64,000 bases of DNA. Source: Chloroflexota bacterium. GTDB taxonomy: Bacteria > Chloroflexota > Anaerolineae > Aggregatilineales > J027. This document shows, one piece after another, positions 20,637-23,730 of this stretch. A program made the position numbers and the translations under genes. The stretch lies in the NCBI GenBank assembly GCA_013112715.1, contig JABFGB010000004.1, positions 1 to 64,000 on the forward strand, given 5' to 3'. Every line of letters starts with the position of its first letter. Position 1 is the first letter of the stretch. The notes beneath the pieces were generated by a model, which saw only the letters and a program-made list of their open reading frames with translations, searched no databases and was not told the origin of the DNA.

Positions 20637-20666
20637 TTGACGTTTAGATAGGTTTTGTTATATCAT
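20637..20666 (+). promoter_or_regulatory. Promoter of Y RNA 1 and rsr
   Basis: TTGACG, 18 bases, TATCAT. The expected start point, seven or eight bases past the -10, falls on G20674, the first paired base of Y RNA 1. That agreement supports both calls. Confidence 0.75.
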
Positions 20667-20673
20667 AAATTCT

Positions 20674-20740
20674 GGTGGGCCGATGTGTTTGGATTATCGC
20701 TAGTAAAAGCTGAAAACGACCAACACGATTTTTGCCCACC
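20674..20740 (+). ncRNA. Y RNA 1 (minimal, in rsr leader)
   Basis: Stem 1 GGTGGGC / GCCCACC (20674-20680 with 20734-20740). Internal loop CGAU / GAUUUUU. Stem 2 GTGTTTGG / CCAACAC with one bulge (20685-20692 with 20720-20726). The conserved GGATTATC follows stem 2. The remaining loop has a three-pair hairpin only and no tRNA-like module. Shape and the GGGCCGA signature match the Ro60-binding arm of Y RNAs. It lies between the promoter and the rsr start, so it is either the 5' leader of that mRNA or is cut from it. Confidence 0.85.
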
Positions 20741-20784
20741 ACCTCAGACGGATGTATTGGAAGTTGGAGAAAGGCGGTGCGGTG

Positions 20785-22485
20785 ATGAAGAAATATTTGA
20801 CACACCTGATTACCAAAGCACCCACACCGCAAAATGCCCCCTTGCCGGGAACAACGCAGGTTGCAAACTCGGCAGGTGGGTATAGCTGGGCGGTGGATAA
20901 ATGGGGTCGCCTGCGTCGGTTTCTCATTTTGGGGAGCGAAGGCGGGTCGTATTATGCCAGCGAGCGTGCTTTGACGCTGGAAAACGCCAACAATGTCCTC
21001 AAGTGTATCCAAACCGACGGGGTGCGTGCGGTCAATGAAATCGTGGCGATTTCGCAAGAAGGCCGTGCGCCGAAAAACGATCCAGCGATTTTTGCCCTAG
21101 CACTGGCGGTGACCAAAGGTGATGAGGCCATTCGACAGGCGGCATTTAAGGCGCTACCCGACGTGTGCCGTACAGGAACGCATTTGTTCACCTTCGCGGA
21201 ACTGGTTAATGGGATGCGTGGTTGGGGGCGTGGCTTGCGTCGGGCGGTAGGTGGTTGGTATTTGGCGATGGATAACCGTTCGCTGGCCTACCAACTGGTG
21301 AAATATCGTCAGCGCAACGGCTGGACACACACCGACACCCTTCGGTTGGCGCACCCGACACCCGCCAATGATACACAGGGCACGATTTTCAAATGGGTGA
21401 CGTATAAGCCCAAAGAAAATGGCACGGGTGAAACGGCTCATGTAGAAACCAACCCATTGGAATGGGCCGAGGCGTTGAATGCGCCGGAAGATCAAGCCCT
21501 AGCGTTTATCTGGGCGTTTGAACGAGTCCAGAAGGCGGCTGATACGGATACAGTGGTCAAGCTGATTGAAGCCTATGATCTGCCGCGCGAGGCGTTGCCG
21601 ACCCAATGGCTAAATGACCCGGATGTATGGGCGGCACTGTTGACCAAAATGCCGATGACGGCCCTCATCCGTAACTTAGGGGTGATGTCGCGGATTGGCC
21701 TACTGAAGCCACTCAGCGAGGCCGAAAACAGGGTGGTTGAACGCCTGACCAATGCCGATACACTGCGGAAGGCACGGGTCCATCCCATCGCGGTGTTGAT
21801 TGCGCTACGGGCCTATTCGCTAGGGTACGCACTCAAGGGTAAGGTCAGCCGTCGGGGACAGGCCGGGGTCGAAAAATCGGCTGGTTGGACGCCTACCCCG
21901 CGTGTATTGGACGCACTCGACGCGGCTTTTGAACTGGCGTTCAAAAACGTTGAGCCGACCAACAAACGGATCATGCTGGCATTGGACGTATCGGGTTCGA
22001 TGTCGGGCGGGATGGTCGCAGGTGTGCCGGGGTTGACGCCGCGTGAAGGCAGCGCAGCGATGGCGATGGTGACGGCGCGTTCGGAGCCGAATTACACGGT
22101 GGTTTCGTTCCAAGACAAAATCGTGCCGCTGAATATCTCGGCGCGGATGCGGCTGACGGATGTGGTCAAGATGACCAATGGGCTGCCTTTCGGGGCGACC
22201 GACTGCGCTCAACCGATGCTGTATGCGCTGGAACACAAAATCGCAGTGGATACGTTTGTCATCTACACCGATAGCGAGACGTGGGCGAACCCGCAGTTAC
22301 ACCCAGTTCAAGCCCTTGCTCAATATCGTGAGAAGATGGGCATTCCGTCGAAGCTGATTGTCGTCGGGATGGTATCGAATGGATTCACGATTGCCGACCC
22401 GAATGATGCCGGGATGTTGGACGTAGTGGGTTTCGATGCCTCGGCTCCGGCGCTGATTGCGGATTTTGGCCGGGGCACCATTTGA
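20785..22485 (+). CDS. rsr: Ro60 orthologue (Rsr), TROVE domain Y RNA-binding protein
   Basis: 566 residues from ATG 20785, preceded by GGAGAAAGG; an in-frame ATG at 20752 lies next to the Y RNA 1 stem and is unlikely. The N-terminal two thirds is the TROVE ring of HEAT repeats (WAVDKWGRLRRFLILGSEGG, FTFAELVNGMRGWGRGLRRA). The C-terminal von Willebrand A-like domain has a complete MIDAS: DVSGSMSGG (D401, S403, S405), GATDCAQP and VIYTDSETW. Ro60 proteins bind Y RNAs on the ring surface and misfolded RNA ends in the hole. In Deinococcus, Rsr works with Y RNA and PNPase in RNA decay. Here Y RNA genes flank it on both sides, on the same strand. No rtcBA or pnp gene is near. Confidence 0.96.
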   Translation: MKKYLTHLITKAPTPQNAPLPGTTQVANSAGGYSWAVDKWGRLRRFLILGSEGGSYYASERALTLENANNVLKCIQTDGVRAVNEIVAISQEGRAPKNDPAIFALALAVTKGDEAIRQAAFKALPDVCRTGTHLFTFAELVNGMRGWGRGLRRAVGGWYLAMDNRSLAYQLVKYRQRNGWTHTDTLRLAHPTPANDTQGTIFKWVTYKPKENGTGETAHVETNPLEWAEALNAPEDQALAFIWAFERVQKAADTDTVVKLIEAYDLPREALPTQWLNDPDVWAALLTKMPMTALIRNLGVMSRIGLLKPLSEAENRVVERLTNADTLRKARVHPIAVLIALRAYSLGYALKGKVSRRGQAGVEKSAGWTPTPRVLDALDAAFELAFKNVEPTNKRIMLALDVSGSMSGGMVAGVPGLTPREGSAAMAMVTARSEPNYTVVSFQDKIVPLNISARMRLTDVVKMTNGLPFGATDCAQPMLYALEHKIAVDTFVIYTDSETWANPQLHPVQALAQYREKMGIPSKLIVVGMVSNGFTIADPNDAGMLDVVGFDASAPALIADFGRGTI

Positions 22486-22493: not shown

Positions 22494-22500
22494 AAGACTT

Positions 22501-22565
22501 GGTGTGGGCCGGAGTACATGGGTTATCAACTGAAACGACCCCATTTACGGCAACTTGCCTACACC
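22501..22565 (+). ncRNA. Y RNA 2 (minimal)
   Basis: Stem 1 GGTGTGGGC / GCCTACACC, nine pairs (22501-22509 with 22557-22565). Stem 2 GTACATGGG / CCCATTTAC with one mismatch (22514-22522 with 22540-22548). GGGTTATC is present. Apical loop of about 17 bases with no tRNA-like part. It starts 16 bases after the rsr stop. Confidence 0.85.
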
Positions 22566-22569
22566 ACCT

Positions 22570-22734
22570 ATCACCAAAGTGGGCCACAAGAAATGTTGGT
22601 TTGATAGCCCATGCGCTTTCTTGGCAAGAAAGAAGGCAGGCTTAACCAAGATTTTATGCGGCAGAGTCGGAGGATAGGGCCTTTGTAGATTTCGGTCTGC
22701 TCAGGCACTATCACTCCCAAAGTGGAATTGTTGA
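22570..22734 (+). other. Unassigned structured stretch inside the Y RNA array
   Basis: 165 bases between Y RNAs 2 and 3. It contains GTGGGCC pairing with GCCCAT (near 22579 and 22607), a strong hairpin CTTTCTT / AAGAAAG (about 22615-22633) and a GCAGA / TCTGC pair further on. It lacks the full GGGCCG...GGTTATC...TTTTGCC pattern. It may be a decayed Y RNA or a processing spacer. Confidence 0.35.
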
Positions 22735-22864
22735 GATGGGCCGCTGTGTGCTGGTTCTCGGCTAGGTAGTTCAGTTGGTAGAACGGTGGATAAACTATCC
22801 ATGCGTCTCCGGTTCAAGTCCGGACTTTGCCAATCAATTACCAGTATGCCAATTTTTGTCCATC
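22735..22864 (+). ncRNA. Y RNA 3 carrying an intact tRNA cloverleaf
   Basis: Stem 1 GATGGGC / GTCCATC (22735-22741 with 22858-22864). Stem 2 GTGTGCTGGT / ACCAGTATGC, ten pairs (22746-22755 with 22840-22849). The 3' internal loop is CAATTTTT. The apical loop holds a complete tRNA-like fold at 22760-22832 in normal order. It is thus joined to the Y stem through its acceptor end, unlike the permuted modules of Y RNAs 4, 7 and 8. The usual GGTTATC is GGTTCTC here. Confidence 0.85.
22760..22832 (+). other. tRNA-like cloverleaf within Y RNA 3
   Basis: All parts have exact tRNA sizes. Acceptor GGCTAGG / CTTTGCC (one U-U mismatch), D stem GTTC / GAAC with loop AGTTGGTA, anticodon stem GTGGA / TCCAT with loop TAAACTA, five-base variable loop, T stem TCCGG / CCGGA with loop TTCAAGT, and discriminator A. 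It resembles tRNA-Asn outside the anticodon loop. Position 33 is A rather than the universal U, position 37 is U, and no CCA is encoded, so it is probably not a translating tRNA. Confidence 0.8.
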
Positions 22865-22888
22865 TCCTTGATAATTGAATCAATTGAA

Positions 22889-23015
22889 GATGCGGGCCGT
22901 TGTGTTTGGGTTATCGTTCGGGACGACGAGGTGTGGGTTCGACTCCCACTGGATTCTACCGAATCTGTAGCTCAATGGCAGAGCGCGATTCCAGATACGC
23001 TCCTTTGCCTGCATC
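22889..23015 (+). ncRNA. Y RNA 4 with permuted tRNA-like module
   Basis: Stem 1 GATGCGGGC / GCCTGCATC (22889-22897 with 23007-23015). Stem 2 GTGTTTGG / CCAGATAC (22902-22909 with 22991-22998). In the loop come, in order: GGTTATC and a small hairpin; a T arm GTGGG-TTCGACT-CCCAC (22933-22949); a 7-pair acceptor stem TGGATTC / GAATCTG closed by TACC (22950-22967); and a D arm GCTC-AATGGCA-GAGC (22970-22984). This is a circularly permuted tRNA in which the Y stem replaces the anticodon stem, as in known YrlA RNAs. The D and T arms resemble tRNA-Trp. Confidence 0.9.
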
Positions 23016-23036
23016 TCCCAAAGCAATTGAAAATCG

Positions 23037-23167
23037 GTGCGGGCCGACGTGTGTGGGTTATCGGTTAACAATGGTTCGACTCCAGACCGCCACCCCTAAA
23101 CTCATGGTGGCGGGACTTCACTAGGCAACTGGTGAAGGTTTACCCATATGCAACTTTTTGTCTGCAC
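23037..23167 (+). ncRNA. Y RNA 5 with divergent permuted tRNA-like module
   Basis: Stem 1 GTGCGGGC / GTCTGCAC (23037-23044 with 23160-23167). Stem 2 GTGTGTGGGT / ACCCATATGC, ten pairs (23049-23058 with 23142-23151). The loop holds a short T-like arm TGG-TTCGACT-CCA (23072-23084), a strong 8-pair stem CCGCCACC / GGTGGCGG (23087-23113) with an 11-base loop, and a D-like arm CTTCAC / GTGAAG (23116-23137) with GG in its loop. Same order as Y RNA 4, but arm lengths depart from tRNA rules. Confidence 0.82.
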
Positions 23168-23195
23168 TGGTTTTTAACAATCGAATAGCAGAACG

Positions 23196-23275
23196 GGTGT
23201 GGGCCGGAATATATGGGTTATCACCGGACTTTGGATCCGGAAAGGATGCCCATCTAGTAATTTTTTGCCTACACC
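23196..23275 (+). ncRNA. Y RNA 6 with anticodon-arm-like hairpin
   Basis: Stem 1 GGTGTGGGC / GCCTACACC, nine pairs (23196-23204 with 23267-23275). Stem 2 ATATGGG / CCCATCT with one mismatch, then GGGTTATC. The loop has a perfect 5-pair hairpin CCGGA-CTTTGGA-TCCGG (23224-23240). Its seven-base loop has U33 and reads TTG at positions 34-36, as in the anticodon arm of tRNA-Gln. No T or D arm is present. Confidence 0.82.
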
Positions 23276-23306
23276 ATCTCTCAACATTAACAACCAAATC
23301 ATTTTT

Positions 23307-23434
23307 GGTACGGGCCGCTGTGACTGGGTTATCGTCTCCAACGATGGGGTGCGGGTTCGAGTCCTGCCTGATACTTCGGTATCAGTAGCTTAACTGGATA
23401 GAGCTTATACCAGACACGATCCTTTGCCTGTACC
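23307..23434 (+). ncRNA. Y RNA 7 with permuted tRNA-like module, UUCG-capped
   Basis: Stem 1 GGTACGGGC / GCCTGTACC (23307-23315 with 23426-23434). Stem 2 GTGACTGG / CCAGACAC with one mismatch (23320-23327 with 23410-23417). After GGGTTATC comes a hairpin ATCGT / ACGAT, then a T arm GCGGG-TTCGAGT-CCTGC (23351-23367). A perfect 7-pair acceptor stem CTGATAC / GTATCAG capped by a TTCG tetraloop follows (23368-23385), then a D arm GCTT-AACTGGATA-GAGC (23388-23404). The D arm is like that of tRNA-Arg. This is the clearest permuted tRNA of the array. Confidence 0.93.
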
Positions 23435-23455
23435 ACCCTCAGATTTGATTGCAAT

Positions 23456-23601
23456 GGCATGGGCCGACAGATGTGGGTTATCGGATCATTTGGCGGATGC
23501 CTTCGAGGGTTCGAGTCCCTCTCCTGTGTGGAATCTGCACAGGATGTCCCGAGTGGCAAAGGGGAATGACATTCTCCCATGTCGCCCTTTTTGCCCATGC
23601 C
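23456..23601 (+). ncRNA. Y RNA 8 with permuted Ser-like tRNA module
   Basis: Stem 1 GGCATGGGC / GCCCATGCC, nine perfect pairs (23456-23464 with 23593-23601). Stem 2 GATGTGGG / CCCATGTC (23470-23477 with 23576-23583). After GGGTTATC come a GGC-GGAT-GCC hairpin resembling a class II variable arm and a T arm GAGGG-TTCGAGT-CCCTC (23505-23521). Then a perfect 7-pair acceptor stem TCCTGTG / CACAGGA with a nine-base loop (23522-23544) and a D arm with TGTCCCGAGTGG. The D and variable arms are tRNA-Ser-like. Confidence 0.92.
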
Positions 23602-23626
23602 TCACCATAAAATGTCATTAGATATA

Positions 23627-23730
23627 GGCGCGGGCCGATAGTTGTTGGGTTATCGGTGGTTGTGAGGGTCAATGCTCTCCCTCCATGTCTCAAATGAGAT
23701 ATATCCCACAGCGCCCCTTTTGCCTTCCCC
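23627..23730 (+). ncRNA. Y RNA 9 (degenerate module)
   Basis: Stem 1 is imperfect (GGCGCGGGC with GCCTTCCCC). Stem 2 GTTGTTGGG / CCCACAGC has one bulge (23641-23649 with 23705-23712). GGGTTATC and the 3' CCCCTTTTGCC are present. The loop has GAGGG / CCCTC with a ten-base loop where the T arm would be, and an 8-pair ATGTCTCA / TGAGATAT hairpin, but no D arm. Last member of the array. Confidence 0.72.

Follow-up and report, generated by a model that had tools for sequence, protein, structure and literature searches.

What bacteria and phages gain by retaining Ro60, and with it several Y RNAs in each genome, is a standing question. In the 64,000-nucleotide stretch of Chloroflexota DNA analysed here (the window), the Ro60 gene is accompanied by nine Y RNAs, one of which (Y RNA 6; 23196-23275, forward strand) was said in a preliminary description to display the anticodon arm of a tRNA.

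The rsr locus and its Y RNA array

The bacterial Ro60 orthologue, rsr, is encoded on the forward strand at 20785-22485, with TROVE and Ro60 vWA domains (Pfam TROVE, 2.8e-46; vWA_Ro60, 9.7e-67). Y RNAs were recognized by the motif GGGCCG...GGGTTATC...TTTGCC, and by this reading of the window one lies upstream of rsr and eight downstream, all on the forward strand. Y RNA 1 (20673-20743), with a promoter-like site at 20637-20666, lies upstream; the gene is followed by the short Y RNA 2 (22500-22566), Y RNA 3 (22732-22867), Y RNA 4 (22888-23016), Y RNA 5 (23035-23169), Y RNA 6 (sixth when Y RNA 1 is counted), Y RNA 7 (23306-23435), Y RNA 8 (23455-23602, end approximate) and Y RNA 9 (23626-23733, end approximate).

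Several of these RNAs have tRNA-like domains. Y RNA 3 contains a whole tRNA-like cloverleaf at 22760-22832 (Rfam tRNA, 47.6 bits; ARAGORN, tRNA-Val(aac)), the anticodon arm of which, GTGGA-TAAACTA-TCCAT, lacks U33. Descent of Y RNA 3 from tRNA-Gln was considered and set aside, as tRNA-Phe aligns slightly better (50 vs 48 identities), and no parent was assigned. The tRNA-Val(AAC) called there by ARAGORN and Rfam is the tRNA-like domain of Y RNA 3, and a second such call, tRNA-Asp(ATC) at 22877-22957, also falls across a Y RNA; such calls on Y RNA tRNA-like domains are a likely source of misannotated tRNAs. A possible tRNA with a CTA anticodon was also seen elsewhere in the genome (G000:C3:216700-216771; ARAGORN tRNA-Pyl, Rfam 42 bits). 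Y RNAs 4 and 7 are YrlA-like, with T and D arms, and Y RNA 8 has a tRNA-Tyr-like permuted domain with a long variable arm. Read from their sequence, the YrlA-like copies begin the domain with an anticodon arm and a variable region, followed by the T arm, a closed acceptor stem and finally the D arm. This describes a circular permutation of a tRNA in which the Y stem separates the D arm from the anticodon arm.

The preliminary description set Y RNA 6, as a mimic of the anticodon arm, against other copies mimicking the tRNA elbow. That contrast is incomplete, since anticodon loops also occur in further copies, both within the array and among congeners. The hairpin of Y RNA 4, TCG-TTCGGGA-CGA (22914-22926), has a loop identical to that of the genome's own tRNA-Pro(CGG), while that of Y RNA 7 is ATCG-TCTCCAA-CGAT, with a compensated stem (ATCA/TGAT) in the congener G027.

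The anticodon arm of Y RNA 6

Y RNA 6 has two features of a bacterial Y RNA: it is encoded beside a Ro60 orthologue, and its long terminal stem contains the conserved Ro-binding motif GGCCG...GGUUAUC...UUGCC. Its landmarks are GGGCCG at 23201, GGGTTATC at 23215 and TTTTGCC at 23263, with TTTTGCCTACACC as the closing strand, and the whole folds at -32.8 kcal/mol. It is of the short type; inspection of its sequence found no T arm or D arm, and neither ARAGORN nor Rfam called a whole-tRNA cloverleaf with acceptor stem in it.

Its outer hairpin, CCGGA-CTTTGGA-TCCGG (23224-23240, forward strand), is exactly as first described. Five Watson-Crick pairs enclose a 7-nt loop (23229-23235) that corresponds to positions 32-38 of an anticodon arm, with T33, the anticodon UUG at 34-36 and a purine at 37. 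This anatomy is well supported: across the partition function of the whole Y RNA, the five pairs have pairing probabilities of 0.97-1.00. In the minimum-energy fold one extra pair forms within the loop, a gain of 0.6 kcal/mol over the open 7-nt loop; the isolated tRNA-Gln arm behaves likewise. The 7-mer CTTTGGA occurs 16 times in the window (both strands) but within a 5-bp stem only in Y RNA 6, the hairpin of which is the sole case of U33 with UUG among the window's 5-bp/7-nt hairpins (67 per strand).

Comparison with the genome's own tRNA-Gln(UUG), proposed as a check in the preliminary description, strengthens the resemblance. The arm of this tRNA (G000:C11:152572-152643) is GTGGA-CTTTGGA-TCCAT; the loop is identical to that of Y RNA 6, three stem pairs also match, and 13 consecutive nucleotides (GGACTTTGGATCC) are common to the two arms. 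No other tRNA recovered from the genome has the CTTTGGA loop. Anticodon-arm mimicry is strongly supported by this identity, together with the pattern across Y RNAs described below. We infer that Y RNA 6 is transcribed and bound by Ro60; judged by its sequence, it is probably a noncoding RNA associated with Ro60, and its outer hairpin faithfully reproduces the anticodon arm of tRNA-Gln(UUG).

Conservation and exchange of loops among relatives

Loss of the 7-nt loop or of TTG from a retained stem, named at the outset as the pattern that would speak against mimicry, is not seen in the two known orthologues of Y RNA 6. In these congeners (G026 and G027) the CTTTGGA loop and its TTG are invariant, and the stem has one change, which leaves a U-G pair; the copies are otherwise identical, so this evidence of conservation is weak and shallow. 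Y RNA 6 is missing from two other congeners examined. In the neighbouring Y RNA at 22888, five congeners keep the TCG/CGA pairs around the loop; three of them have the loop TTCGGGA (Pro CGG), a fourth has TTCGGGG and a fifth CTGATAA (Ile GAU). The anticodon of this RNA thus differs among congeners on a kept stem, but the Ile loop that stands in place of the window's Pro loop is another real anticodon loop. Four congeners have a tRNA-Asn arm, TTACC-CTGTTAA-GGTAA, in the Y RNA that precedes rsr, whereas the window copy has none.

Similar exchange is seen further afield. In a set of orthologous Verrucomicrobiota Y RNAs, the stems change in concert (tca/tga, tcga/tcga, tcgt/acga and tatcg/cgatg), and all of them surround a loop of 7 nt. 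The anticodon within it varies, and a few of the loops (e.g. CTATAAC and CAGCAAA) correspond to no real anticodon loop. The loci L118 and L119 carry cagaCTTTGAAtctg, and the local tRNA-Gln(UUG) loop there is CTTTGAA; as the Gln loop is CTTTGGA in the window and CTTTGAA in L118 and L119, in each case that of the local tRNA-Gln, the mimic tracks the local variant. Exchange of loops between real anticodons, and stem changes that keep the hairpin, argue for selection.

Anticodon loops in Y RNAs across Rsr loci

The wider pattern was surveyed at the Rsr loci of 80 named genomes from many phyla, of order-level relatives and of 80 viral contigs (classed as viral by the source collection's own sorting), which when pooled gave 235 non-redundant Y RNA cores. 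A phylum-wide search for Y RNA cores without an rsr anchor was discarded, since it returned mostly chance matches, about equal in number to a reversed-pattern control; counts were therefore restricted to rsr loci. Only hairpins beginning directly after the Ro-binding GGUUAYC motif were counted, and the null consisted of 200-500 mononucleotide shuffles of the downstream 30 nt. The idea was formed on loci of the same order, leaving the validation bacteria and the viral contigs as two sets outside its making.

Loops of seven nucleotides after GGUUAYC are in clear excess in bacteria (63 vs 18.1 in shuffles), with loops of 5, 6, 8 and 9 nt near the null (3-bp stem). The excess recurs in the validation bacteria (43 vs 12.7 expected) and the viral contigs (26 vs 7.2), with loops of 5, 6 and 8 nt near the null in both. 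Loops exactly matching anticodon loops of the window's genome number 11 in the validation bacteria (0.04 expected) and nine in the viral contigs (0.03 expected); in the pooled sample they make up 29 of 87 hairpins and comprise 14 distinct loops, against 0.074 in shuffles. The pattern is non-random. When loop columns were shuffled among U33 loops, keeping the make-up of a U-turn, matches averaged 12.9 and reached at most 22 in 5000 trials; as the 29 seen were never attained, the full loops are those of tRNAs rather than mere U-turns. Y RNA loops also follow tRNA rules, with U33, purine 37 and A34 in only two of 51, A34 being nearly absent from tRNAs as well. Position 36 is A or U in 40 of 51 Y RNA loops, compared with 195 of 371 tRNA loops (p = 0.0005).

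The feature is far from universal: 153 of the 235 Y RNAs are without such a hairpin, and many anticodon-like arms have just three pairs. Eleven of the 29 exact loops (Y RNA 6 and 10 others) are in Y RNAs without a T arm. As read from these loci, bacterial and phage Y RNAs can show a 7-nt anticodon loop on a small stem, alone or within a permuted tRNA domain. In the viral-contig Y RNAs (L212-L291), the anticodon loops favour Ser (GCU, UGA, CGA) and Thr UGU. Rsr is present in 341 phage records, and Gordonia phage Cashline has two Y RNAs, one with a Cys loop (CCU-CUGCAAA-AGG) and one with a UUG-type loop (CCA-AUUUGGA-UGG).

Genomic surroundings and rRNA-like Y RNAs

At least 10 tRNAs lie near rsr at 18 of 76 bacterial and nine of 80 viral loci. 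In L118 (6557-8608), L119 (7696-9814), L153, L158 and L174, rsr and Y RNAs are located within or beside arrays of ~14-23 tRNA genes. The RNA ligase RtcB is encoded near rsr at 13 of 80 bacterial loci; that of the present genome is encoded away from the rsr locus.

In L150 (6826), L164 (12042), L174 (2216) and L082 (9227), the stretch after the Y RNA core nearly reproduces helix 69-71 of 23S rRNA (GTAACTATAACGGACCTAAGGTAGCGAA). The copy in L150 is 93% identical over 28 nt (E 6e-7), and those in L174 and L082 are shorter or weaker; this suggests that some Y RNAs mimic rRNA. A short Y RNA in L093 (6586-6649) has a loop starting with AGTACGAGAGGAC, the 13-nt core of the 23S sarcin-ricin loop, which could be chance. 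Mimicry of the sarcin-ricin loop is not claimed, as it rests on these 13 nt and a reversed control reaches similar lengths.

Possible functions of the arm

The reading tentatively favoured here, with slightly less than an even chance of being right, is that the arm of Y RNA 6 serves as bait on the Ro60 particle for enzymes acting on anticodon loops, and that this forms part of a wider Y RNA design. Held on Rsr, the Y RNA would present an anticodon loop that competes with real tRNAs for such enzymes, or captures them; the likeliest targets would be anticodon nucleases released during stress or phage conflict, an identity that we infer, and Y RNAs may exchange loops with one another when the threat shifts. 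Besides the loop evidence above, the tRNA arrays and RtcB genes near rsr speak for this reading. The Salmonella rsr-yrlBA-rtcBA operon is switched on when tRNAs are cleaved within the anticodon loop, frequently at A36/A37, and the authors of that study raised competitive inhibition of the nuclease by the tRNA-like domain of YrlA (PMC7790460). Anticodon arms on Y RNAs would suit a competitive-inhibitor bait as proposed there. Counting against bait, Salmonella YrlA is itself uncut by that nuclease (PMC7790460); the many Y RNAs that lack the hairpin, the frequency of three-pair arms and the shallow conservation of Y RNA 6 also weigh on that side.

The A/U bias at position 36 fits enzymes that modify A37 equally well, and for this reason a role in tRNA modification is retained as a less probable but serious contender. 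The arm would then be a substrate or sink for tRNA-modifying enzymes (e.g. those acting on A37, wobble U34 or G34, or U38-40), and modification or binding would tune the Ro60-PNPase particle or report tRNA hypomodification. The bias corresponds to the t6A/i6A classes of tRNA, and the helix 69-71 that some Y RNAs copy is a site of 23S rRNA dense in modifications; the Gln(UUG) and Asp loops, however, are no substrates for t6A or i6A. Salmonella YrlA is a substrate for modification by TruB and by a Dus enzyme (reviewed in PMC8394870). It is unlikely, though still conceivable, that recombination brought tRNA genes into Y RNAs and that the arm is what they left behind, a remnant without function. 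The tRNA arrays around rsr loci offer raw material for this, and the many array Y RNAs whose T and D arms look like those of particular tRNAs lend it weight. Such a remnant is difficult to reconcile with the exchange of loops between real anticodons, the stem changes that retain the hairpin, and the exact loops in Y RNAs without a T arm. Y RNA 6 itself retains the anticodon arm alone, and its lack of T and D arms points to more than the leftover of a captured tRNA.

Two further explanations carry little weight. A decoy for aminoacyl-tRNA synthetases, or a codon-reading element, is very improbable. In its favour, GlnRS reads the UUG anticodon; against it, loops of the Ser type rank among the most frequent, and SerRS recognizes its tRNAs without reading the anticodon. 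The hairpin is, moreover, carried on a long Y stem and has no acceptor CCA end. That a single short motif picked by eye out of nine Y RNAs merely resembles an anticodon arm by chance would be a natural suspicion, but is scarcely credible against 11 and nine exact matches in two sets that had no part in shaping the idea, where 0.04 and 0.03 were expected.

Relation to known RNAs and wider meaning

Among the closest known RNAs is YrlA (Rfam RF02553), exemplified by Salmonella YrlA, a Y RNA that likewise associates with Ro60, contains a tRNA-like domain and lies near rsr. The YrlA covariance model scores the copies at 22888 and 23306 at 33.3 and 34.5 bits, under its 69-bit gathering cut-off, and gives no match to Y RNA 6. 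The RF02553 consensus combines D, T and acceptor-like stems and lacks an anticodon hairpin, whereas Y RNA 6 has the anticodon arm alone. Y RNA 6 also resembles those short bacterial Y RNAs that have no tRNA-like domain, such as YrlB of the Salmonella operon, in being a short Y stem-loop beside rsr. The nematode stem-bulge RNA (Rfam RF01656) shares the core GGCCGGAGU...UGGGUUAUC with the window Y RNAs, with matches of 34.1 and 31.5 bits, under the gathering score of 38; unlike the array Y RNAs it is eukaryotic, and to our knowledge no anticodon arm has been described in it. Phage tRNAs that counter anticodon nucleases (PMC10264068) evade cleavage through loop mutations. Like Y RNA 6, they combine a tRNA anticodon loop with a proposed role in tRNA-cleavage conflicts, but the phage molecules described there are real tRNAs with mutated loops, whereas Y RNA 6 places an exact loop on a non-tRNA.

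A full-text literature search, with the primary Y RNA papers outside its scope, found no mention of an anticodon arm in the loops of short bacterial Y RNAs or on Y RNAs generally. Since tRNA mimicry by Y RNAs is already published and the YrlA model is without an anticodon arm, the arm is provisionally regarded as a new module on a known RNA. A broader and more doubtful proposal sees the Ro60-Y RNA arrays of bacteria and phages as evolving libraries of anticodon-arm baits that can stand in for one another, with a different tRNA loop on each copy and, in some lineages, 23S helix 69-71, which would shield the translation apparatus by intercepting or sensing RNases. Genuine, exchangeable anticodon loops on many Y RNAs give the question of their retention a concrete target, the enzymes that act on anticodon loops, and connect Ro60 particles with the cleavage of tRNAs, with RNA repair and with conflict involving phages.
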